This document shows positions 11,263 to 32,509 of a stretch of 34,401 nucleotides of DNA, one piece after another; position 1 is the stretch's first letter; each line of letters opens with the position of its first letter. Origin of the DNA: Planctomycetaceae bacterium (GTDB lineage: Bacteria; Planctomycetota; Planctomycetia; Pirellulales; Pirellulaceae); the NCBI GenBank assembly GCA_007694185.1, contig RECD01000169.1:1-34401 (forward strand), read 5' to 3'. A model generated the notes under the pieces. That model saw nothing but the letters and a program-made list of their open reading frames with translations. It was not told the DNA's origin and made no database searches. The position numbers were made by a program, and so were the translations under genes.

Positions 11263-14200
11263 TTAGCGGTTGAAGAGGAACGCGGGGCTGTTGATTAGCG
11301 CCCAGGTCAGGTCTTCGGCGGCGGTCAGGCGTACCTGCTGCTGTTGCTGAGCACTCTGTTCGACGTCTGTCCTCAATCGTTCCAGCAGCGGATCGGTCGG
11401 GGTGACGACACTCAGCTTTGCGATCCGTTGCTCGATCGCGACGATGGCAGGATCTTTGGGTACCGCCGCTTTGGCCGCCGCGACGGCGGTGACGTCCGCT
11501 TTGATGGCCTCATCGGTCGAATCGATGTAGCTGTGCAGGTAGGCCAAGTCCGCTTCGGTCCGTTGTTCTGCGGGGGTCCGCAGGATGGTGGCGAGCGGTT
11601 CGGCCAATCCCAGCGGGATGGTTTCTTGCGGGTCAACGCAGAGGCTGATTCGGAACCGCCCCAACCGGTGTTCGACGGCATTGTGAACCTGGTGCAAGCG
11701 GATGGTGATCCGTTGGTCACGTCCGCCCGCGATCGGTTCTTTGGCTTGCACGACCAACCAATGGGGTTGGCCGAGCGAGCCGGCAGCGGCCCAGCCTTGT
11801 TGGTCGGTTCGGTTGCCGTTGATCGCCTGTTCGGGTGCGAAGCCGCTTTGGGAAAAGTCGGCGACGGCGCGGGAAAAGGCGATCGGTTGCTGGACGTCAG
11901 GGGTGGCTGCTGCCGCGGTCACCGCCTCGAGCTCGGTCACCACGAAATTACCGTTCTCGGACAGGCCGGGGCCTTGCGACTTGAGCGATTCGTGGGTCAA
12001 CGCTTCGAGACGGATTCCGGTGATCTGGGTCAGCGGCGTTTCGAAGGTGAGTTCGTAGAAGCCTTTTTCGGCCTTGCCGCTGACGAGGATCGAGCGATCT
12101 TCCAAGATGCGGAATGTATCCCCGTTCGAGGTTTTCATTTCCGTGGGGCTGATTGGGAACCAAGCGACACCCCCTTCGTCGGGTGAGCGGCCATACCAAG
12201 CTTCTCGTTGGGCTTGTCGGGTCGCTTCCAATTTCGCTTCGGCGTCGGCGATCCGCTGGTTGCGAGCGGCTTCCTGCTGTTCGCGGGCCGGGCGAAGTTC
12301 CTCGGTCTTGGACTCGAGTTCCGCGCGGGCTGCGGCGAGCGATTCCTCGCGAACCGCCTCGCGTTTGGCGAACTCTTCGTCCCACCAAGCTTGCCGTTCG
12401 GCGAGCGAGCGGCTGAGTTCTTCGTGGTCCCGGGCGATCGCTTCGCGGAAATCGGCGAAGGTCGCGACTTCTCCCGGCGTCGGCGATCTGCCCAGGATTC
12501 GCAGGTAGAGTTCCTCGACCAAATTCGGGTCATCCGGCAGGTCGGCGACGAGTTTCGCCAGCGCGTTTTTGTCATCCGAAATGGCATGGCCGACGGTGGG
12601 GCCGCTGACCAACGCCATGATCGGTCCGAGTTGCAGGTCACTGCTCCGTTCGCACTCGCAGGCGCTTTCGCGAACGGGTTGTCCGAGGTTTTGCAGGAAG
12701 CCGTCCGCGGTCGCCAGTCCGACGTCCGGGAGGGCGGCGGCGCGGGTGCCGCGGGGGACGCCCGGGATTTCGGTCACGGAGCCGGTGACGAAGTGGATCG
12801 TGTCGTACAGCACTTCGGCGGGCAAACGGCGAGGCGTGGCGCGGGCGAAGTTTTGGGTGTCGTCCGCATTCCAGTCGTTCGGGACTACCGAAAGCTGGTA
12901 GGTGCGGCTGTTGCAGATCGACCGCATGACCTGACGGATGTCGAAACCGCTGTCGACAAATTCGCTCGTCAGGTGGTCCAACAATTCGGGATTGGTCGGG
13001 GGGTTTCCGGCGCGGATGTCGTCGATCGGTTCGATCAGTCCGACGCCCATCATGTAGGCCCACAACCGGTTCACATAACTCTTGGCAAAGTACGGGTTGT
13101 CCGGGTGGGTCAACCAGGTTGCCAATTGCTCACGGCGGCTACCGGATTCCGGTGCGGTGTGTTCGATCGCGAACGGAAACTCCGGCTGGACTTTTTGGCC
13201 GGTCCGTTCGTGCGTGATTTCGCCGTCGCCTGCGTCGAAGACCTCTTCGTAAAGCGGCTTGGCACCTTCGACGGCCGTCCCGCCGATCTTGGCTTCACCG
13301 CTGGCGGGATCAGCTCGAAGTCGGGTGCGGGCAAAGAAGGCCGCTGTTTCGTAGTATTGATCCTGGGTCCAACGCTCGAACGGGTGGTCGTGGCACTTGT
13401 TGCAATTGAATCGAATGCCCAAGAACAGGTGCGTCGTGTTTTCCATGATCTCGTCCGGATCGCGAAGCACCTTATAATAAGACGCGGCCGGATTGTCCTT
13501 GTTGGATCCCGACGCGGTCAGGATCTCGTGAACGAACTGGTCGTACGGTTTGTTCTCGGCCACGGAGGCACGGATCCATTCCCGGTAGGCCGCGCTACCC
13601 TCTGCGCCGAGGAACTTGCGGTTTACCTGTAGCAGGTCGGCCCATTTGTTGGTCCAAAATTCGATGAACGCTTCGCCGGCCAGCAGTTGATCGACCACGG
13701 CGGCCCGTTTTTGGCGGGTCGGCGTCTCGTCAGCCAAGAAGGCGCGAACCTGATCGGCGGTCGGTGGCAACCCCGTCAGGTCGAGGTGGACGCGACGCAG
13801 GAATTCGGCATCGTTAGCCAGATCGCTCGGCAAGACCTTCATGCGTTGCCACTTGGACGCAACCAACTCATCGATCGGCCCCCAAGCGGCCGGTTCGACC
13901 CATTGGAATTCGCTTCGTTCGCCCATTACCGTCAGGGTGGAGGCGGCGTAGGCCCCTTCGTAGCGAGCCAAGATCGGAGCTTCGCCACGCCGGATCGCCG
14001 TCAGCGCCGCCAGGTTATCGACTTCGGCGACTTCGGTATTGCCGCTGGTCACGAAGGCTTCGCGGGTCACGTCACGTGAGTATCCGTCGGCGTAGTAGGC
14101 GACGACACGAACCTGTTGGCGGGAGCCGATCGCGGAGACGACGGGATCGGTCGGGGTGATTTCGATTCGGGTCACCCGTGGCGTCGTCAGATCGAGCTTT

Positions 14201-16398
14201 GAACCGTTCGCGATCCATTCCCGCAGGGCGGTGTGGTAGGGATCGGCGTGGGTCATCACGGCGCCGCCTTGGTGCGGCGTCAAGCCGAGCGGTTTGCGGA
14301 GCATCAACGAATCGTCCGGGGCGGCCGGGTTGATCCGGCGGGCGGCGTGATCGTCGGTGAGGGCACGGATATCAAAAATCGGGTCGTAGCCGCGCAGCGA
14401 CAATTTGAAGCCGTTCTTGCCGGCTTGGGCGCCGTGGCAGGTGCCTTGGTTGCATCCCAATCGGCTCAGCACCGGGTTGACGTCACGAATGAAGTCGACG
14501 GCGCCGGGCGAGTCGAGGCCGGTGACGATCAGCGGCAACGTTTGTGACTGGTCGCCCAAGCGGACTGTCAGCGTCGCTTGGCCATCGGCCAAGGGGCGAA
14601 TCACTCGCCTGGAGTCGGCGGTCACGAGTGCCGGCAAATCGAGATCGACACGGCGGGTGACGTCGACGGTAGACCCATCGACGAGTTCGGCGGTGACGAT
14701 CAATTGGTTGTAGGCCAGCGGGTGATCGAGCGAGATCGCTTTGGGCAGAACCGCGATCGACACGACCTGTTCGGGTGCGAGCGTCGGCTCGACAGCTTGT
14801 CCGTCGGCTGATTGGGACACGACCTGCGACCAAGCCACGGCGTCGAACTCGGCGGCGGCAGCTCGCTCCTCCTCGGGGACGAGGGCCGGCGCGACTGCCC
14901 ATTCGGCAACCGGTTCACCGGCGGGATCGAATCGGCGGAGCAGCCCGTCGGTACCGGATGCGACCAAGCCGTTGTCGGGCGAGAAACGGATGGCGTAGAT
15001 CGCGGCCGAATCGATCGACGACCGCCAGACCTCACTCCCCTCGATCTGTCGGTAGGCGTTCAGAACTTCCTTTTCCTCGGGGGTCAGTTCCGCGGGCGGC
15101 TTGGCGGCAAGCGGGCCGATCTCGGGCGGCGTGGCGCCACCGAAGTTGTAATTCCAGACCCGAATTTCGCTCTTGCCTTCGATCGTCGCGGCGGCGGCCA
15201 ATTTTGACCCATCGGGGCTGACGGAAACCGAGAAAATCCGTCCGGGCAAAGCGGGGAGGGCGCGGATCAGGTTGGCGTCATCGCCGATCTTGCGGGCGGT
15301 TTCGCGGAAGACGCGATAGACCTTGGCCACGCCATCGGCGCCGCCGACCAAGATTTCGTTCCGTTCGGGGTGGCTATCGATGCTGTTCAGGCCACCTGAC
15401 AGGGCACCTGGGGTGATCGAAGTCACGTTGTCGATGAACCGCTGGGTCGCGACCTCGGTCAACTTGCACGTCATGTCACGCGCGACCGAAACGAGGTGTT
15501 TGCCGTCGGGGGTGTAAGCGACGTCCATCACCCAGTCTTCGTGGGCGCCTTGAAACAGGACTTCCTCGCCGGTTTGCGAATCGACGGCGCGGACAATGTT
15601 GACCGAACCGAAGGCGATTTGTGAGCCGTCCGGCGACCAGCAGACGCCCGACAGCGAGTCGCTCGACACGGGCAGCGAGAGGGCGAGTTCTCCGGCAGCG
15701 ACGTCCCAAACCTGCAGTTCACCTGATTCGGACGGTGTTCCCGCGGCGACCGCTAGGCGGGTCGAATCGGGAGCAAATCGGACGGTATTGATTCGGGGGC
15801 TGAGGCCCACCAGGCGGGCGACCTGTTGACCGGTCGCCGCATCGAGCAAGATCACCTCGTGGTGTCCGGCGATGGCGATCCGGCTGCCGTCGGCGGAGAC
15901 GTCGACCGACGTGACGCTCGGGGCGTTCACGTAAACCGGCGGGTTGTCCGCGTCGAAGCGGGGGCCGGACTCGGTCGGCGAGTCGTTCACGGCGCCCTGG
16001 GCGATCCAATCTCGAACTTTTGCGACTTCGACGGGAGACAGAGCCGGCCAAGGGGCTTGGGGCATCTCGGCGACGCCGTCCACCGGCGTGATCTGGGCCA
16101 GCAGGTAGCTGGCGTCGGGGTCGCCGGGGACGATCGCCGGTTGGCCCGTTTCGCCGCCGGAGAGTAGTGCCGCGAAATCGGTCATCAGATAGTCACCTTG
16201 GCGTTTGCCGCTTTGGTGACACCCGTAACAGGCCTTTCGAAACATCGGCGCGATGTCCGAATGGAAGCTGATTTTCTGCTCGGCGTCGGCGGGTTCGGAC
16301 TTCGGCTCTTCCGCAGCAACTGCCGTGGAGAAAAAGGCGAACAGCACCGCAAGCGAGGTGAGTTGCTGGACGACAGATCGTTTAACGAAAATAGGCAC
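11263..16398 (-). CDS. Giant secreted PSCyt1-WD40-DUF1549-DUF1553 protein
   Basis: A 1711-residue exported protein using the GTG at 16398, which has ggag upstream and places a signal peptide (VVQQLTSLAVLFAFFSTAVAA) at the N-terminus; the frame stays open to a TTG at 16509. A planctomycete cytochrome domain has C57-YG-C60-H61. A WD40-type propeller (about 120-440) includes VTSVDVSADGSRIAIAGHH and further blades. A Big-like domain spans about 545-625. A second Cys-His site is C649-NQGT-C654-H655, followed by DUF1549 (about 830-1060) with C999-NK-C1002-H1003. DUF1553 starts near 1085. Its usual C-terminal end (DLTWALINSPAFLFNR) is separated from the rest by a charged coiled coil (about 1320-1403) and a discoidin-like region. 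It is probably an envelope redox or binding protein; no reaction has been established for these families. Confidence 0.92.
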   Translation of the reverse strand: MPIFVKRSVVQQLTSLAVLFAFFSTAVAAEEPKSEPADAEQKISFHSDIAPMFRKACYGCHQSGKRQGDYLMTDFAALLSGGETGQPAIVPGDPDASYLLAQITPVDGVAEMPQAPWPALSPVEVAKVRDWIAQGAVNDSPTESGPRFDADNPPVYVNAPSVTSVDVSADGSRIAIAGHHEVILLDAATGQQVARLVGLSPRINTVRFAPDSTRLAVAAGTPSESGELQVWDVAAGELALSLPVSSDSLSGVCWSPDGSQIAFGSVNIVRAVDSQTGEEVLFQGAHEDWVMDVAYTPDGKHLVSVARDMTCKLTEVATQRFIDNVTSITPGALSGGLNSIDSHPERNEILVGGADGVAKVYRVFRETARKIGDDANLIRALPALPGRIFSVSVSPDGSKLAAAATIEGKSEIRVWNYNFGGATPPEIGPLAAKPPAELTPEEKEVLNAYRQIEGSEVWRSSIDSAAIYAIRFSPDNGLVASGTDGLLRRFDPAGEPVAEWAVAPALVPEEERAAAAEFDAVAWSQVVSQSADGQAVEPTLAPEQVVSIAVLPKAISLDHPLAYNQLIVTAELVDGSTVDVTRRVDLDLPALVTADSRRVIRPLADGQATLTVRLGDQSQTLPLIVTGLDSPGAVDFIRDVNPVLSRLGCNQGTCHGAQAGKNGFKLSLRGYDPIFDIRALTDDHAARRINPAAPDDSLMLRKPLGLTPHQGGAVMTHADPYHTALREWIANGSKLDLTTPRVTRIEITPTDPVVSAIGSRQQVRVVAYYADGYSRDVTREAFVTSGNTEVAEVDNLAALTAIRRGEAPILARYEGAYAASTLTVMGERSEFQWVEPAAWGPIDELVASKWQRMKVLPSDLANDAEFLRRVHLDLTGLPPTADQVRAFLADETPTRQKRAAVVDQLLAGEAFIEFWTNKWADLLQVNRKFLGAEGSAAYREWIRASVAENKPYDQFVHEILTASGSNKDNPAASYYKVLRDPDEIMENTTHLFLGIRFNCNKCHDHPFERWTQDQYYETAAFFARTRLRADPASGEAKIGGTAVEGAKPLYEEVFDAGDGEITHERTGQKVQPEFPFAIEHTAPESGSRREQLATWLTHPDNPYFAKSYVNRLWAYMMGVGLIEPIDDIRAGNPPTNPELLDHLTSEFVDSGFDIRQVMRSICNSRTYQLSVVPNDWNADDTQNFARATPRRLPAEVLYDTIHFVTGSVTEIPGVPRGTRAAALPDVGLATADGFLQNLGQPVRESACECERSSDLQLGPIMALVSGPTVGHAISDDKNALAKLVADLPDDPNLVEELYLRILGRSPTPGEVATFADFREAIARDHEELSRSLAERQAWWDEEFAKREAVREESLAAARAELESKTEELRPAREQQEAARNQRIADAEAKLEATRQAQREAWYGRSPDEGGVAWFPISPTEMKTSNGDTFRILEDRSILVSGKAEKGFYELTFETPLTQITGIRLEALTHESLKSQGPGLSENGNFVVTELEAVTAAAATPDVQQPIAFSRAVADFSQSGFAPEQAINGNRTDQQGWAAAGSLGQPHWLVVQAKEPIAGGRDQRITIRLHQVHNAVEHRLGRFRISLCVDPQETIPLGLAEPLATILRTPAEQRTEADLAYLHSYIDSTDEAIKADVTAVAAAKAAVPKDPAIVAIEQRIAKLSVVTPTDPLLERLRTDVEQSAQQQQQVRLTAAEDLTWALINSPAFLFNR

Positions 16399-16837
16399 GA
16401 TTCCGAACTCCGGTCGATTCGTGGTCAACAAATCTAAGGGCCGCGAAACGGGCTCCGGCGCCACAGGTGACGGGAGGGAAACGCGGCGGGTTGAGTACGG
16501 CACCACCAATCCGACCGGATCGCGAGGTGGCTCGGATCCGACCCGGCGGTAGCCCAGCGGGGGCAGGCGGGCGGCGGGAAGGGATTTCCCGCTGGCTTTA
16601 GCCTAACGTCTGTAAACCCGCCGTCAATCGTTTGCCGGCTGGCGCGCGGTCGTTTGCCGGTTGGCGGGCGGTGCGTTATGAAACCGTCGCGTTTGGCGGG
16701 ACGGTTCCGCAGCGGGGCGATGCGGTTTAGAATCACGCCGCATCGGGTCGCTGGGGGGATGCCGGCCAGATTCCCCGGCCCCGAAACTCGCTCCATTTTC
16801 CTACCCGTATTGCTCGGACTGATTGTCCAGATATCTC
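16399..16837. other. Divergent intergenic region, giant protein / serC
   Basis: This stretch separates two divergently transcribed genes and should contain both promoters. No gene is supported. It includes an in-frame but non-protein-like extension of the giant gene up to a TTG at 16509 and a 22-bp tandem duplication at 16629-16672. I could not identify convincing -35/-10 elements. Confidence 0.55.
16629..16672. repeat. 22-bp tandem duplication
   Basis: cgtttgccggctggcgcgcggt at 16629-16650 is followed directly by a second copy differing at two positions (16651-16672). It lies between the divergent starts of the giant protein and serC, about 165 bases before serC. It could be a pair of protein-binding sites or a chance slippage duplication. 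Confidence 0.6.
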
Positions 16838-20866: not shown

Positions 20867-23800
20867 TCACGGTGATCCTTCGACGATCAGTTCGCCGTTC
20901 ATCACCGACCAGTGGCCGGGAAAGGTGCAGAGGTAGGGATAGCGTCCGGCGGTTTCGGGAGCGCGAAAGTAGATGCTGAATTCTTGCCGCGGGTTCACCA
21001 GATCGGTGTAAGCCAAGACTTCGGGGGTGTCGGGGACGTAGTGTCGAAGCGGCGCTTCGGGGTCGGCGATGTAGCGATTCGTCAGGTCGCCGACTTTTTC
21101 TAGCGATCCCGGAGTGAGCAACGCCCAGTTGTGCGGGACGACGTCGGGATTGACCAAAGACAAGCGGAGCGTTTCCCCCGGTTTCGCACGGAACGAAGTG
21201 GTGCCGAACGTCAAGTTGCTGGTGCATTCGATCCGGACTTCGCGAGCCCCTTCGATCGGTTTCCGCCACGGGTTGGGGATCGAGCGGGTGGCGAGTTGGA
21301 AGTCGGCCAGGATCGGATGAGGACGGGTCTCCTTTCGAACGGCGACATAACCGGGGAAATCGGTGAACGGTTCTCCCAACCGATTGACGGTCACGAACAG
21401 TTCCGCAGGTTGCGTCGGGCCAACTTGCAAGTAGAGGTGCAATTGGTTGACAGGTTGCAGTTCCGGGAGTTCGATGAAGAGCGATCGGCCGTCCGAACCG
21501 ACGTGGGCGGCGGTGATGGTGAGTGTGTCGTGTCCCGGGGTATTCGGGTGCGACGGCGAGTATTCGGGTGAACCGTATCCCGGGCCGTAGCGATAGTTCC
21601 AGACTTGCGCGAAGTGGTTGGCCGGATCGGCAGCGACCGCCGCGTCGAGCGGTTCGCTGAAGCTGACCAGCACGCCGTTTTGGTGAACTCGGACGGCGAT
21701 TGGCAGTTGGACTTTGCGACCGGTGTAGCGAACCCGCTGGAGCGCCCCGTCCTCGACCGCGTAATTGCCCCAACCCTTCGCGCCGGCGACGTAGAGTTGG
21801 CCGTCTTCGGGGCGGAATCGGCCGCGATGGGCACCTGACAAAAAATCGCCTGGCAGCGGGACGACCGCACCTTGGGGCACGCCGTCGACCTCGTCACGCA
21901 GGATCAGGAAATGGGACGCCCCGCCGTAGGAAAAGTGGATCATCTGATCGCGTAACGGGCCCCACCGATCATCGGCCACCCAAGCCTGGCCGCCGGACGA
22001 GTTGTCGAGTGCTCGCGGGAGGTAGACCATCGGCAGGTCGGGAGGGGTGTCATCCCGCGGCCCCGGGTAGCCGAAGTGGGGCTGAACGCCTGGCTTGACC
22101 AACCCGATCATCGAAGCGGAAACCCAGTTCCCTTCGGAATTGGGGACGGTGATGGCGCCGTCCGGATAGAGCCCCAAGCCGTCGGGATTGCGAAGCCCCG
22201 TGGCGATCACTTCCGCGGACGTGCCGTCAGAAGAAATTTTGACCAACCCCTGATTGCCGGACGCGATGTAAAAGTTGCCGGCTGGGTCACGTTGCAACCC
22301 GCAAATGTAGTCGTGACCGGCCGGGGACGTTTCGTAAGCCGCGGAGAAACGTTCGTAAAAGTCCGCTTCGCCGTTTTCGTTCAGGTCATGCAAGCGGGTG
22401 ATTTGGTCTCGTCCGAGCACAAAAATCCCGTCGTCGTCGATGACCATCCCGAGGGGTTGATGCAGGCCGGCCGCGAACCGTTTCCAGGTCGCTTGGCGGG
22501 ACGGGTAATCGAGCCCCGTCACTCGCCAGACGTCGCCTTGGAGGGTGCAAACGTACGCCGAACCGTCGGGGTGAAAGGCGAGGTCGCCGAGGTACAGTAT
22601 CGATTTCCAGGGGTTGTCAAAGGGGAGCCGGATCGTGTCGATCGCGTACGGGGCGTTCTCATCACCCAGTTCGATCGGGGTGACAAACACTTGTGGCCAG
22701 GCCGCTGGGCCACCCTTCAGCATGTCGCGTCGCGGGTGTTCAGAGACCGGGGCACGGAGCGGCCGAAATCCGTTGTCGTCGGTGGCCGGGACATCGAGGT
22801 ATTCGGTTTCGCCGATCCGATAAACGAAGCCGACCTGGTCGCCGTGACGGTAGAAGCCACGATAGCCAAACGCTTTGTTCGGCGGGGTGCCTCCGTCGAT
22901 CGCAACCGGTTCACCCGCCGGCATCAGGCCGTGCATCAACCCGCTGCGAATGGCGGAAAACCGCAGAAAGTCGCCTGTCCAAGCGAAGTCATAAGTCAGC
23001 GTTTCGGGGTTGAAGCAGACGGCTCGGACCGCAGGCGATGAAGCGGCGTCGGAGGCGATGTCGGCATTCGGCTCGGGCAATTGGACACAAACGCCTCGGG
23101 GAACCGTCACCTTCTCCCCGCGGAACACGCCGGCTTGCCAGGCTGCCAATTTGGTTTGGTTCCAGCGACCGTCCTCCCAAGTCGGTTCGGCTTGGTTTCC
23201 CCAATGGCCATGTTCCGGTCCGTCCAATCCGGGAAACTCGGCCAACAATGGCGGCAGGTAAGCTTGGTCACGAAAATAGACGGCCTGTTTCGCATAAAAG
23301 TCGTAGATTCGATCTCGGTTGATGTGAGCCCCGGCGTTAGGCCAAGCGGCCGGGTTCAGCGGCTCGCGGTCCAGCGGAAAGGTGGCTGGTCCATGCAGGT
23401 AGGCGCGAGCCCGAGCGAGTGTTTCGTCGAGCCGTTCGGCGGGCCAGATGTCGTCGCGTCCGAGTTCCAACAGGAATCGGATCAAGTCGGCTCGTTCGGT
23501 CGGGGTCATCGCGTCGACCAAGCCGTCGGGCATCAACGACCCGATTTCGCGTTCCTCCTCGATATCATCTTGGGGAATTCGGTGGAGGGTTTCGCCGGCG
23601 GGATCGAGCAGCACGAGCGTTTCCGAATCGCTGCTGACCCGATAGCCCCGCAGCACCTGACCGCCGGACTGGAGCACCGCGATGGAACGGTACTCCGGGG
23701 GCACGGTCCGCTGGGGCCAGTAAACCGCTTCGACGATCTGATCGGCCGTTCGACGGGTGGACAGGATCGTCAACTCGGGGCCGGCGGCGCCGCCGTGCCG

Positions 23801-24946
23801 ACCGATCCGGTGGCAATTCATGCAGGCGAACTTGGCGGACGCGAAGACCGCTGCGCCACGAACCGAATCGCCGTGTTGGCGGGCCTCCGCCAAAACTTCG
23901 CGGATTTTTTCCGGCGAATACTCCGACGAATCGGCCGGGTCGGGGGCCGGCGGTGGGGCCAACCGCTCGACCAGCGAGTCGAGCCCGGCGAGGTTTTGCC
24001 GGAGCCTGCGTTCGGCATTTTCCTGGGTGTGATTGAGGATCCCGATCGGCCCTCGGTAGCCGCTGCGAGCGATCGTGTCGAGCAGTTTCTGGTCCAGATC
24101 GCCGTCACCAATTGGCAGGATTTTTTTGTCGATGCGATCCCCTTGCGCGACCATCCCGTTCAGGTTCAAGCAATCGAGGTGGGGCAGCATCTTCTCCAAC
24201 AGCTCGGCGAAGCGATCGAGGTGATCGTGGCCGTGGTGAAGGTTGTAGACGATCCCGACGTTGTCGCGTCCGAGTTCCCGGATGATCTCGATCTGGTTCT
24301 CCGGTTCGCCGAACCAGCCGCCGTGGTTGTAGAGGGAAACTCGGCAACCGATCGCGGCCGCGGCGTCGGCGATCGGCGCCAAACGTGCGGCTTCGGCCAC
24401 CACCCGTTCCCGATGTTCCTCGGGGGAGTTGGTCGCGGTGCCCCCGCCGGTAACCCACAATTGCGTCTTGATATCGTGTCGCTTCAAGACGTCCAGAATC
24501 AGCCGCGCTTCGTCATTCAGCACGGTGGGAAACCACCAGGCCGTCAGTTCGATCCCGGCCGCCCGGATCGCTTCCATCTCGGCATCGAACGTGGGGATGT
24601 GATGAGCTCGGTAGTCGTACGCGTACTTGCTCAAACCGAGCCGTCCCAACATTTCGGCGCGCTCCACCGGAGTTCGCTCGCGATCGTCGAACGGCACGAT
24701 GCACCAGGCTACCAAGTTGTCGCGTCGAAACAGATCCGCCGGGTTGCTGAGTTGGGCGGCTGCCGAATCGCCAGGCGGTTTGTCGGCTGGTTTGTCGGCT
24801 GGTGATTCGGATTCGGTCGGCGGGACAATCGCCGGTTGGGCCATCACGACGCCGGTTCCGCCGCCGGCCCAGGAGCAGGCGAAAAGCAAAACTAGCGTCG
24901 CGGTGCTGGGGGGGATGCCGGCGATTGACGTGCGGAGTTGGGACAT
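20867..24946 (-). CDS. Giant secreted protein: TIM barrel, cytochrome c, propeller, cupredoxin
   Basis: A 1359-residue exported protein with an N-terminal signal (TATLVLLFACSWAGG, cleavage near VVMAQ). Residues about 70-330 resemble sugar phosphate isomerase/epimerase TIM barrels (LVAWCIVPFDDRERTPVER and AYDYRAHHIPTFDAEM). A cytochrome c module has C375-MN-C378-H379 and a likely Met ligand in SLMPDGLVDAMTP near 475. Residues about 505-1130 hold a DUF6797-like lead-in (YDFYAKQAVYFRDQ, HGHWGNQAEPTWEDGRWN) and an SMP-30/PQQ-like propeller typical of planctomycete haem proteins. The last ~110 residues look like an azurin-type cupredoxin with H1272 (VVPHNW), C1340, H1345 and M1349 (YLCTFPGHWSVMNG), the four type-1 copper ligands. 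A periplasmic dehydrogenase or oxidoreductase passing electrons haem-to-copper is a reasonable inference; the substrate is unknown. It lies downstream of floA. Confidence 0.9.
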   Translation of the reverse strand: MSQLRTSIAGIPPSTATLVLLFACSWAGGGTGVVMAQPAIVPPTESESPADKPADKPPGDSAAAQLSNPADLFRRDNLVAWCIVPFDDRERTPVERAEMLGRLGLSKYAYDYRAHHIPTFDAEMEAIRAAGIELTAWWFPTVLNDEARLILDVLKRHDIKTQLWVTGGGTATNSPEEHRERVVAEAARLAPIADAAAAIGCRVSLYNHGGWFGEPENQIEIIRELGRDNVGIVYNLHHGHDHLDRFAELLEKMLPHLDCLNLNGMVAQGDRIDKKILPIGDGDLDQKLLDTIARSGYRGPIGILNHTQENAERRLRQNLAGLDSLVERLAPPPAPDPADSSEYSPEKIREVLAEARQHGDSVRGAAVFASAKFACMNCHRIGRHGGAAGPELTILSTRRTADQIVEAVYWPQRTVPPEYRSIAVLQSGGQVLRGYRVSSDSETLVLLDPAGETLHRIPQDDIEEEREIGSLMPDGLVDAMTPTERADLIRFLLELGRDDIWPAERLDETLARARAYLHGPATFPLDREPLNPAAWPNAGAHINRDRIYDFYAKQAVYFRDQAYLPPLLAEFPGLDGPEHGHWGNQAEPTWEDGRWNQTKLAAWQAGVFRGEKVTVPRGVCVQLPEPNADIASDAASSPAVRAVCFNPETLTYDFAWTGDFLRFSAIRSGLMHGLMPAGEPVAIDGGTPPNKAFGYRGFYRHGDQVGFVYRIGETEYLDVPATDDNGFRPLRAPVSEHPRRDMLKGGPAAWPQVFVTPIELGDENAPYAIDTIRLPFDNPWKSILYLGDLAFHPDGSAYVCTLQGDVWRVTGLDYPSRQATWKRFAAGLHQPLGMVIDDDGIFVLGRDQITRLHDLNENGEADFYERFSAAYETSPAGHDYICGLQRDPAGNFYIASGNQGLVKISSDGTSAEVIATGLRNPDGLGLYPDGAITVPNSEGNWVSASMIGLVKPGVQPHFGYPGPRDDTPPDLPMVYLPRALDNSSGGQAWVADDRWGPLRDQMIHFSYGGASHFLILRDEVDGVPQGAVVPLPGDFLSGAHRGRFRPEDGQLYVAGAKGWGNYAVEDGALQRVRYTGRKVQLPIAVRVHQNGVLVSFSEPLDAAVAADPANHFAQVWNYRYGPGYGSPEYSPSHPNTPGHDTLTITAAHVGSDGRSLFIELPELQPVNQLHLYLQVGPTQPAELFVTVNRLGEPFTDFPGYVAVRKETRPHPILADFQLATRSIPNPWRKPIEGAREVRIECTSNLTFGTTSFRAKPGETLRLSLVNPDVVPHNWALLTPGSLEKVGDLTNRYIADPEAPLRHYVPDTPEVLAYTDLVNPRQEFSIYFRAPETAGRYPYLCTFPGHWSVMNGELIVEGSP

Positions 24947-25095: not shown

Positions 25096-26223
25096 TCAGT
25101 TCAGCCGCTGTTTGGCTGGGGTGCTGGCGGCCGCGGAGCCTTTCGCCAATGCGTTTCGCATTTCGGTGTCGGCGTTGATGTTTCGCATCTTGAAATAGTC
25201 GAGGATGCCCAGATTTCCGCTGCGGAACGCGTCCGCCATCGCTTGGGGCACCGCCGCTTCCGCTTCAACCAACTTCGCGCGGCTCTCTTCGATCTTGGCA
25301 AACATTTCCTGTTCTTGAGCGGCTGCGTTGGCCCGCTTGCCTTCCGCCGCGGCGCGAGCGACTTGGGTATCGGCTTCGGCCTGATCCGCTTGCAGTCGGG
25401 CGCCGATGTTGGCGCCGACGTCGATATCGGCGATGTCGATCGACACGATTTCGAAAGCCGTCTGCGAATCGAGTCTTCTGCCGAGCACCGTTTCGCTGAT
25501 CACGTTCGGGTTTTCCAGCACCATTTTGTGGCTGCCGGAACTGCCGATCGCGCTGACGATCCCTTCGCCGACGCGGGCCACGATCGTGTCCTCCGTCGCA
25601 CCGCCGATGAGCTGCTGCAGGTTCGCCCGAACGGTGACTCGGGCCTTCACCTTCAATTGGATGCCGTCCTTGGCGACGGCGTCGAGGGTCGCTTTGGCGG
25701 CGCCTCGGGGGGGACAATCGATGACCTTGGGATAGACGCTGGTCTGGACCGATTCCAGCACGTCACGGCCGGCCAAGTCGATCGCGGTCGCCTCGCGGAA
25801 GGTCAGCGAAATCGTTTTGGCTTTCTTCGCGGCGATCAACGCGCGGATCACCTGCTGGACGTTGCCGCCCGCCAAATCGTGGGCTTCCAACGCGCGGCTC
25901 GTCAGCTCCGGATCGATCAGGCCGGCCTGGGTCGCCATGATCTTGCTGCGAACGATCGAGCGGGCGTTCACTTTTCGGAAAGTCATCCCGATCAGATCGA
26001 ACAGCGTGATGTTCGCGCCGGTCAGTTGGGATTGCACCCACAACCCGAAGTAGTTGGTGAAGATCAACCCGACCACCAGGATGAACACCAGCACCGCGAC
26101 AACGGCCAGCATCAACATCGGCGATGGCAGGCCTTCGGGTAGTTGCGCCAACAGGCCGTTGGGCCCGATCGCCAAAATCGTCGTGTTCGTCATCGGTGAA
26201 ATAGCAGGAAGGATGAGGCTCAT
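25096..26223 (-). CDS. floA: Flotillin-like membrane protein FloA
   Basis: A 375-residue scaffold protein of membrane microdomains. It has a single transmembrane segment at about residues 36-57 ([20 protein letters not shown]), then the FloA-specific region with [18 protein letters not shown], a SPFH-like domain ([18 protein letters not shown] at its end) and an Ala/Glu-rich coiled-coil tail (about 275-345). The closing segment [24 protein letters not shown] is strongly conserved in FloA. Bacterial FloA proteins are about 330 residues; the extra length is in the first 30 residues, so the internal Met at residue 11 could be the true start. It precedes the giant haem-copper gene by 149 bases on the same strand and diverges from the rluB-like gene. 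Confidence 0.95.
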
Positions 26224-31510: not shown

Positions 31511-32509
31511 ATGGGACTCGATGACCGTGTGCGACAAAATCGCGAGGACTACGTACAGAGCGGACAGCAACCCGTCCCGTCAGAACTGTCGGGCGTCACC
31601 AAAGAAAAGGTAGCGGAGACGCTTGCACTGATCGATCGTGCAACCCCCGAAATGATCGACGTCGTTTACGCACTGCTGGATGATCGCTATCAAAATCTCT
31701 TCTCCCGGGCTCCGGCCACTGCGAGGTTTCGTGACGGCGCGACGGTAGCTCACATCGCGACGCATGTCGGCATCCTCCAACGCAACGCCGGGAGACTCGA
31801 TCGCGAAGGACGAGACTATTGGCTCAAGCCACTTTGGGAAATCGGCGCGGTTGAAAAGGTCTACTTCGATCCCAAAACTAAATCCTTCGTCCCAGGACAT
31901 CCCGTTGCGAAATCACCGAACAACGCCTACCGGTTGTCAGCCCGATTCGCCGCGATTTTGGCGATGAAGACCGGCAGGGAAGACGCTTTGCGAGATTGGA
32001 TCTCAGACGATCAAACGCGAATCCGCCTTAGCTTGCAAGCAAAAATGGCGAAGAAGGCAGCCTCACGAGTCGGGTCGAGGCATAAAAGCTTAATCGAAGA
32101 CTGTGTTTCAATATTCGCTACGCATTTCTTACCGAACTATCGCGTTCTCTACGTCGACGATTCCGACGGCGACCGAATCGCGGAAAAAGAATCGCAGATA
32201 CTCGCGGCGGTTGGAATCGAACTTGGTATCGCCGATGCGATGCCGGACGTGCTCTTGTGCGACGAGGCGTCGAAGTCGTTGTGGGTCATTGAAGCCGTCA
32301 CGAGCGACGGCGAAGTCGATTTACACAAAGTTGAGCAACTCACCGCTTTGGCCAAACGCTCCGGCTACGAGAGCATCTCATTCACAACGGCTTATCCGAC
32401 GTGGAGGGTCGCCGCGGCGCGACAAGGAAAGTACAAGAACATCGCACTTGGTACGTACATTTGGATCGCGGAGGATCCGTCAAAGCATCTTGAGTTGCAT
32501 AGCAACTAA
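31511..32509 (+). CDS. Type II restriction endonuclease, BsuBI/PstI family
   Basis: Predicted site-specific endonuclease of 332 residues, about the size of PstI and BsuBI, which cut CTGCAG. The N-terminal ~170 residues are helical (ETLALIDRATPEMIDVVYALL, then YRLSARFAAILAM), like the family's helix-turn-helix region. The C-terminal half contains the nuclease part: SLIEDCVSIFATHFLPNYRVLYV, then MPDVLLCDEASKSLWVIEAVTSDGEV with D246 and E261, and ITFTTAYP-like SFTTAYPTWRVAA and YIWIAEDP at the end. The usual Lys of PD-(D/E)xK is replaced by Val in E261-A-V263. aggaga at 31495-31500 precedes the ATG at 31511. The codons are less GC-rich than the neighbours, suggesting transfer. It converges with the methyltransferase gene 118 bases away. 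Confidence 0.88.
   Translation: MGLDDRVRQNREDYVQSGQQPVPSELSGVTKEKVAETLALIDRATPEMIDVVYALLDDRYQNLFSRAPATARFRDGATVAHIATHVGILQRNAGRLDREGRDYWLKPLWEIGAVEKVYFDPKTKSFVPGHPVAKSPNNAYRLSARFAAILAMKTGREDALRDWISDDQTRIRLSLQAKMAKKAASRVGSRHKSLIEDCVSIFATHFLPNYRVLYVDDSDGDRIAEKESQILAAVGIELGIADAMPDVLLCDEASKSLWVIEAVTSDGEVDLHKVEQLTALAKRSGYESISFTTAYPTWRVAAARQGKYKNIALGTYIWIAEDPSKHLELHSN

Follow-up and report, generated by a model that had tools for sequence, protein, structure and literature searches.

We studied a 34,401-nucleotide stretch of DNA from a Planctomycetaceae bacterium (contig RECD01000169.1 of assembly GCA_007694185.1), which we call the window. A single open reading frame (ORF) on its minus strand, from 24946 to 20867, encodes a predicted multi-domain redox protein that is real, widespread, and well conserved. 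The ORF has no internal stop. It begins with a signal-like segment, followed by a TIM barrel, a c-type haem domain (TIGR02603), DUF6797, a six-bladed propeller, and a type-1 copper domain. An earlier note, made from this sequence alone, had proposed that a TIM barrel, a c-type haem, a propeller, and a type-1 copper site are united in one polypeptide, and all four do lie in this ORF. DUF6797 is an additional domain that the note did not name.

The features of the gene are listed below (residue i is encoded by bases 24946-3i+1 to 24946-3(i-1) of the minus strand).

20867..24946, minus strand: the whole ORF, 1359 amino acids plus stop
24839..24946, minus strand: putative export signal, residues ~1-36 (by eye and from the N-termini of relatives)
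23957..24733, minus strand: xylose-isomerase-like TIM barrel, residues ~72-330 (PF01261, predicted fold, and conservation across aligned rows)
23873..23956, minus strand: linker between barrel and haem domain, residues 331-358
23471..23872, minus strand: c-type haem domain TIGR02603, residues 359-492 (profile match)
23810..23824, minus strand: CMNCH haem attachment motif, residues 375-379 (motif scan and alignment)
23531..23533, minus strand: predicted axial methionine M472 (alignment)
22793..23020, minus strand: DUF6797, residues 643-718 (Pfam match)
21722..22651, minus strand: six-bladed propeller, sugar-dehydrogenase-like, residues ~766-1075 (fold and profile comparison)
20879..21220, minus strand: auracyanin/azurin-like type-1 copper domain, residues 1243-1356 (profile and predicted fold)
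21131..21133, minus strand: predicted copper ligand H1272 (position and alignment)
20900..20929, minus strand: predicted copper ligand loop C1340...H1345...M1349 (position and alignment)

The fusion protein is apparently exported. By eye, the LFAC at C24 in the signal segment (24875-24877, minus strand) resembles a lipobox, so the protein may be a lipoprotein.

The haem and copper sites

The haem domain scores 74.6 bits against TIGR02603 (the cut-off is 68.15), and the only CxxCH in the protein is at residues 375-379, where the earlier note had placed it. This domain is similar to the C-terminal haem domain of the diheme cytochrome c Kustd1711 (PDB 7zs0; E = 5.8e-11), although Kustd1711 is a stand-alone protein with two haems. 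M472 aligns with M292 of Kustd1711, which is the axial methionine of that domain and is changed to Cys in structure 7zs1. The note had suggested a methionine ligand near position 475. A methionine ligand is present nearby, but residue 475 is a glycine and the predicted ligand is M472. The available part of PMC11791136 gives +355 mV for the matching haem of Kustd1711 with calcium bound.

The C-terminal domain has the proposed copper ligands H1272, C1340, H1345, and M1349 at the expected positions. It is similar to the stand-alone blue copper proteins auracyanin A (E = 1.3e-13) and auracyanin B (E = 2.3e-13), which are 30 and 34% identical to it over the aligned residues and have the same His/Cys/His/Met set, with the Cys...His...Met loop in register. 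The predicted structure of this domain superposes on auracyanin A at 1.4 A for 118 residues (Z = 19.1), so the copper ligands are not scattered at the level of the fold. We predict that this is a type-1 copper site in an auracyanin-like fold. The C-terminus scores 27.9 bits against the equivalog model for azurin proper (TIGR02695), below the cut-off of 105.1. A survey of azurin genes had a single planctomycete match, which was judged to be contamination or a wrong annotation (available part of PMC8779525).

Both sets of ligands are conserved in homologues. All 78 relatives in which >85% of the haem columns are filled keep the complete Cys/Cys/His/Met set of the haem site (L060 is below this threshold and reads QYHT at these columns). 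The copper set is intact in 74 of the 79 rows that align over the copper region, and the other five (L080-L084) are multi-haem proteins with five CxxCH in the tail.

Relatives and their architectures

A scan of contigs identified 249 relatives, of which we kept the best 80; the titles of their records are planctomycete, verrucomicrobial, or unplaced. Searches of genomes, which score few candidates per genome and whose match spans do not check the ligands, gave one match that begins before the haem motif and ends past the last copper ligand in 52 of 119 genomes from the window's family (including the window genome). Among 244 genomes sampled across the phylum, 17 have a full-span match, and five of these 17 are also among the 52. 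In our alignment of 98 relatives, the propeller is covered by 86 rows, 81 of which extend to the copper-ligand columns. Among these 81 rows, 66 have both ligand sets, seven have copper only, before any haem (in one of these, L074, the haem is placed after the copper), seven have neither, and one is frame-shifted. These ligand sets are found again in proteins of about 50% identity, so this layout is more than chance.

Using domain profiles built from the aligned rows, we classified 125 ORFs that contain the propeller (PROP), according to the presence of the barrel (TIM), haem (HEME), and copper (CU) domains. The window's protein and L002, its paralogue, are among them, and some ORFs are counted twice because the collections overlap.

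TIM-HEME-DUF6797-PROP-CU: 70 of 125 ORFs
HEME-DUF6797-PROP-CU: 17 of 125 ORFs
DUF6797-PROP: 10 of 125 ORFs
TIM-HEME-DUF6797-PROP: 9 of 125 ORFs
TIM-DUF6797-PROP: 9 of 125 ORFs
TIM-DUF6797-PROP-CU: 5 of 125 ORFs
DUF6797-PROP-CU: 3 of 125 ORFs
HEME-DUF6797-PROP: 1 of 125 ORFs (L002)
TIM-DUF6797-PROP-CU-HEME: 1 of 125 ORFs (L074)

The nine TIM-HEME-DUF6797-PROP rows lack a copper match because seven run off the contig and two are frame-shifted. Relatives without copper have 3-5 CxxCH in the C-terminal tail. Specifically, seven of the nine TIM-DUF6797-PROP rows have five CxxCH (the other two are cut), and nine of the ten DUF6797-PROP rows, all cut at both ends, have 3-4 CxxCH downstream of the propeller within the sequenced part. 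Judging from these sequences, relatives that lack the haem or copper domain almost always carry another redox domain. There are exceptions to the pairing of haem and copper with the core. L152, which has DUF6797 and the propeller and is not cut, has no CxxCH or copper domain (there is an internal stop within its match). Seven relatives have a copper domain but no haem in the same chain (L048, L055, L056, L063, L060, L145, and L146; in the last two, the 5' end extends beyond the locus). And the paralogue in the window genome (contig C285) combines two CxxCH motifs with DUF6797 and the propeller but gives no copper match.

We also note two unusual arrangements. In L013 and L090, which are probably from one organism (a near relative, 71-80% identity), there is a frame shift near the end and the copper domain is in an overlapping frame. 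In the window genome itself, L006 (319-2727 of contig C181, minus strand) carries a copper domain ahead of a C-terminal TIGR02603 haem domain.

We built a tree of 112 core sequences (FastTree with local support values and a midpoint root; L002 and L056 are on long branches). It separates 94 copper-bearing rows from 18 rows without copper, and 16 of these 18 are multi-haem. A single clade of 86 rows includes 84 with both haem and copper; of the other two, L047 is cut before the copper domain and L145 has copper without haem. Verrucomicrobial forms without haem lie low on the copper side of the tree. The fewest changes of state on the tree are 4 for haem, 2 for copper, and 17 for the barrel, although the count for the barrel is inflated by cut contigs. 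We infer that the haem was added to a propeller-copper protein at an early point in the planctomycete clade and retained thereafter, while the barrel has been gained and lost. Four sequences that are titled Candidatus Kuenenia or Akkermansia (L032, L033, L067, and L048) are nested with Planctomycetaceae or Verrucomicrobiales, so the titles of these metagenome-assembled genomes may be mislabelled.

The TIM barrel is optional and its site is not canonical

The note had described an epimerase-like barrel at the front of the protein, and this is borne out. The match to PF01261 is 45.7 bits (the cut-off is 31.1), with the best stretch at residues 150-322 in the Pfam scan, and the predicted fold matches the epimerases UlaE and YcjR (Foldseek). 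Ranks 2-3 are taken by YcjR, a 3-keto-D-glucoside 4-epimerase, and many isomerase-like barrels match at Z ~20-21. Ten residues (Y206, N207, H208, E214, H237, H238, H240, N261, N263, and H306) are invariant in 88 of 88 rows, counting the window. However, when we aligned the barrel to MJ1311 with HMMER, the Glu/Asp/His/Glu metal positions read Y206, N235, N263, and L304. We take these four positions to be the sites of the epimerases' metal ligands. The canonical ligands are not kept at any of these positions across the 88 rows: Y206 and N263 are present in all of them and N235 in 87, while position 304 is Leu in 71 and Ile in 17. So, on sequence grounds, the site of this barrel is conserved yet non-canonical. 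Both the altered metal positions and its place in an apparently exported fusion distinguish it from YcjR and UlaE.

The architectures indicate that the barrel is an optional add-on to a unit of haem, DUF6797, propeller, and copper. In 12 of the 17 barrel-less rows, the haem domain is immediately preceded by what looks, by eye, like a signal segment. Of the other five, two (L009 and L089) are truncated at the 5' end and one (L137) at the 3' end, and an overlapping TIM ORF lies upstream of L042; our inspection of N-termini covered all rows except L098. Among the 66 relatives in which both ligand sets are complete, 16 have more than 150 residues between barrel and haem; the one such insert that we scanned with Pfam, in L039, contains a laminin-G domain. 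In L060, there is a SASA esterase-type domain in the barrel's stead. The predicted structure of barrel plus haem has a predicted local distance difference test (pLDDT) score of 90.8 and a predicted template modelling (pTM) score of 0.58. This pTM is about what would be expected if the barrel alone were placed, so the orientation of barrel and haem does not look fixed in the model.

DUF6797 and the propeller

The match to DUF6797 scores 46.8 bits (the cut-off is 24.9), and part of the propeller (residues ~821-912) resembles DUF7133/TIGR02604 at below the cut-off. In a model of the core (residues 338-1359; pLDDT 88.8, pTM 0.81), a six-bladed propeller lies between the haem and copper domains, as the note had claimed for a propeller. 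Its fold matches pyrroloquinoline quinone (PQQ) sugar dehydrogenases (VIA-align: 3a9g with Z = 18.4 and a root-mean-square deviation (rmsd) of 3.1 over 289 aligned residues; 2ism with Z = 18.2). R919-N920 is invariant in the 50 aligned propeller rows, and H878, E938, and W941 are conserved. We compared a profile of these 50 propellers to a profile of 19 GSDH-type proteins from related genomes with hhalign, and obtained a probability of 90.7% over 275 columns. Eight controls (the TIM profile, the propeller profile reversed, five column shuffles, and the GSDH profile reversed) had probabilities of at most 1.9%. Furthermore, R919-N920 aligns with an Arg-Asn pair that is present in all 19 GSDH proteins and which we take to be part of the PQQ pocket. 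The available part of PMC6881789 also mentions one conserved Arg. By profile comparison and predicted fold, then, the propeller is distantly related to the PQQ sugar dehydrogenases.

Other results weigh against reading the propeller as a dehydrogenase. Propellers that are not enzymes match as well or better: PknD has Z = 20.0, designed Pizza propellers were also found, and a profile search of PDB gave only PknD-type and Pizza propellers at E < 0.001. The hhalign probability is 66.7% in the reverse direction and 8.7% with a single GSDH sequence. The acidic pair of GSDH is not kept. The catalytic His of GSDH falls on D879, one off from H878, if one GSDH sequence is aligned, and in a gapped stretch if all 19 are used. 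The Pfam family for GSDH and the soluble PQQ aldose dehydrogenases (PF07995) has no match to the fusion protein at E up to 1. Finally, pqqE was above the cut-off in none of 20 genomes, but it was also above the cut-off in none of 14 control genomes, so this search lacks a positive control. (GSDH genes are present in 19 of the 20 genomes.)

Two other observations concern these propellers. Residues 854-862 (22361-22387, minus strand) read DLNENGEAD, with a family consensus of DLNGDGEAD; by eye, this DxNxDGxAD-like stretch resembles a calcium-binding loop. And L108, a planctomycete GSDH protein, appears by eye to have a CxxCH segment of its own ahead of the propeller.

Proposed function and alternatives

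The core is almost always accompanied by a redox domain (L152 is the exception) and the barrel is optional, which suggests that DUF6797 and the propeller make or use electrons. The various partners (an epimerase-type barrel, a laminin-G domain, a carbohydrate esterase, and a dehydrogenase-like propeller) point to carbohydrate. Our best explanation, to which we give a little under an even chance, is that this is an exported modular oxidoreductase: the DUF6797/propeller core would be the redox catalyst, acting on a carbohydrate-like substrate, with haem and copper as relays. The conserved unit would be haem c, DUF6797, the six-bladed propeller, and type-1 copper. The catalytic site would lie on the top face of the propeller (R919, N920, H878/D879, and their neighbours), perhaps together with DUF6797. 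It may be a diverged sugar-dehydrogenase-like site whose cofactor is probably not PQQ, and the carbohydrate would be oxidised there. Copper and haem, in either order, might then carry electrons out one at a time within the chain and pass them to a soluble partner or an oxidase. The TIM barrel (accompanied elsewhere by laminin-G, or replaced by the esterase-type domain in L060) would be a tethered partner that binds or acts on carbohydrates.

The earlier note had instead inferred an intramolecular electron path, perhaps from the oxidation of a sugar to haem and then copper, which we read as oxidation by the TIM barrel at the front. The barrel does adjoin the haem domain and has the fold of a sugar epimerase. 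But the superfamily of xylose isomerase-like barrels is non-redox, the canonical metal ligands are replaced, and the barrel is absent from proteins in which a signal-like segment precedes the haem (or gives way to an esterase-type domain, in L060), and its orientation relative to the haem does not look fixed in the model. Because the barrel is optional and its metal ligands are replaced, we consider oxidation by the barrel to be very improbable, and the propeller is more likely than the barrel to be the oxidising part, as judged from profile comparison and predicted fold. A different role for the barrel would be compatible with our best explanation: it might act on the product of the propeller, for instance by epimerising or eliminating a 3-keto sugar, so that each chain would perform two consecutive steps. 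The rank of YcjR among the fold matches fits with this. Also, H208 is two residues past Y206, just as, in the 3-keto-glucoside eliminase AtOGE, the catalytic His134 is two residues past the metal ligand His132 (available part of PMC10628242; the matching of positions is our own). However, AtOGE needs Mn held by His/Asp/His and a weak Glu (same source), and the corresponding positions here are Tyr/Asn/Asn/Leu-Ile, so we give two consecutive steps only a small chance.

A somewhat less likely alternative is loose shuffling of domains: haem and copper would be tethered shuttles or sensors that work independently, without an electron path from one to the other, and the barrel and propeller would do no more than bind carbohydrate. 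TIGR02603 is attached to many planctomycete proteins and is above its cut-off at 26 places in the window genome (including the fusion protein), some relatives have copper without haem, the paralogue has haem without copper, and the barrel does not seem to be held in a fixed orientation. On the other hand, nearly all of the main clade (84 of 86 rows) has both metal sites with the ligands intact, and the pTM of the core model (0.81) exceeds the ~0.69 or less that we roughly estimate if both redox domains floated. Electrons could also flow in the opposite direction, from the respiratory side via haem and copper into the propeller/DUF6797, where a site that is reductive or depends on oxygen or peroxide would use them; propeller-cupredoxin reductases work in this way. 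The top multi-domain matches from Foldseek are in fact nitrous oxide reductases, which have a propeller and then a C-terminal cupredoxin domain. But the listed alignments to these proteins have rmsd >20 A, which means that the domains match individually, and the propeller's profile is near to dehydrogenases. Furthermore, the CuA site of nitrous oxide reductase requires two Cys, whereas the copper loop here (CTFPGHWSVM) has one, so it is not CuA. We therefore rejected membership in the nitrous oxide reductase family, and we regard the electron-accepting direction in general as improbable.

Comparison with known proteins

The note's author knew of no characterised protein with this layout, and we found none in the open-access literature, among the matches listed; the available parts of PMC8567305 and PMC11495043 do not name such a protein. 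The hydrazine-synthase-type proteins, which combine haem and propeller, have other architectures, according to the available part of PMC12758564. The closest in working principle to the fusion is the AA8-AA12 pyranose dehydrogenase CcPDH from Coprinopsis cinerea, in which a propeller of the soluble glucose dehydrogenase (sGDH) type is fused to a cytochrome domain with interdomain electron transfer (available part of PMC6881789). In contrast to the fusion protein, CcPDH uses PQQ and haem b and has no type-1 copper, barrel, or DUF6797, while the fusion protein keeps the residues of the PQQ pocket only partly. The three-domain haem c-copper nitrite reductase of the Ralstonia pickettii type, from what is available of its description, also tethers a cytochrome c to cupredoxin domains in one chain. 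It reduces nitrite at its copper site, which is a type-2 copper site, and it has no propeller or barrel.

Genomic context

The fusion gene's immediate upstream neighbour, ~150 bp away and also on the minus strand, encodes a FloA flotillin-like protein (25096-26223). No link to a pathway is visible among the neighbours in the window (FloA, PGDH, an M24 peptidase, and an aminotransferase). Two kinds of neighbour recur, at 22 and 15 of 77 loci; by eye, these look like DUF1501 and PSCyt/DUF1549 proteins, and we draw nothing from them. A few kb away, an ORF of 1748 amino acids (11263-16509, minus strand) encodes a second fusion of cytochrome and propeller, with PSCyt1, a WD40 propeller, PSCyt2, and PSD1. 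The window also encodes a BsuBI/PstI-type restriction endonuclease domain (31511-32509, plus strand). Elsewhere, the window genome contains two matches for cytochrome c assembly and three COX1-type oxidase genes, all above their cut-offs.

Implications

Going further than our best explanation, these proteins could form a class of exported carbohydrate dehydrogenases that is specific to the PVC (Planctomycetes-Verrucomicrobia-Chlamydiae) group, with an oxidising propeller whose cofactor or metal site is something other than PQQ, a built-in wire of haem c and blue copper, and an exchangeable sugar-processing head. We think that this is unlikely. If it is true, these proteins would be a type of enzyme for which no counterpart has been described and which is common in planctomycetes, and the barrel, laminin-G, and esterase domains would be its exchangeable heads. 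The predicted copper domains also show that auracyanin/azurin-type domains are common in planctomycetes, within fusions. Planctomycetes have many uncharacterised exported haem fusions, and this family is one tractable case: the metal ligands are fixed, natural variants add or drop the barrel, haem, or copper, and there is a candidate active site, so the function of such fusions can be tested.

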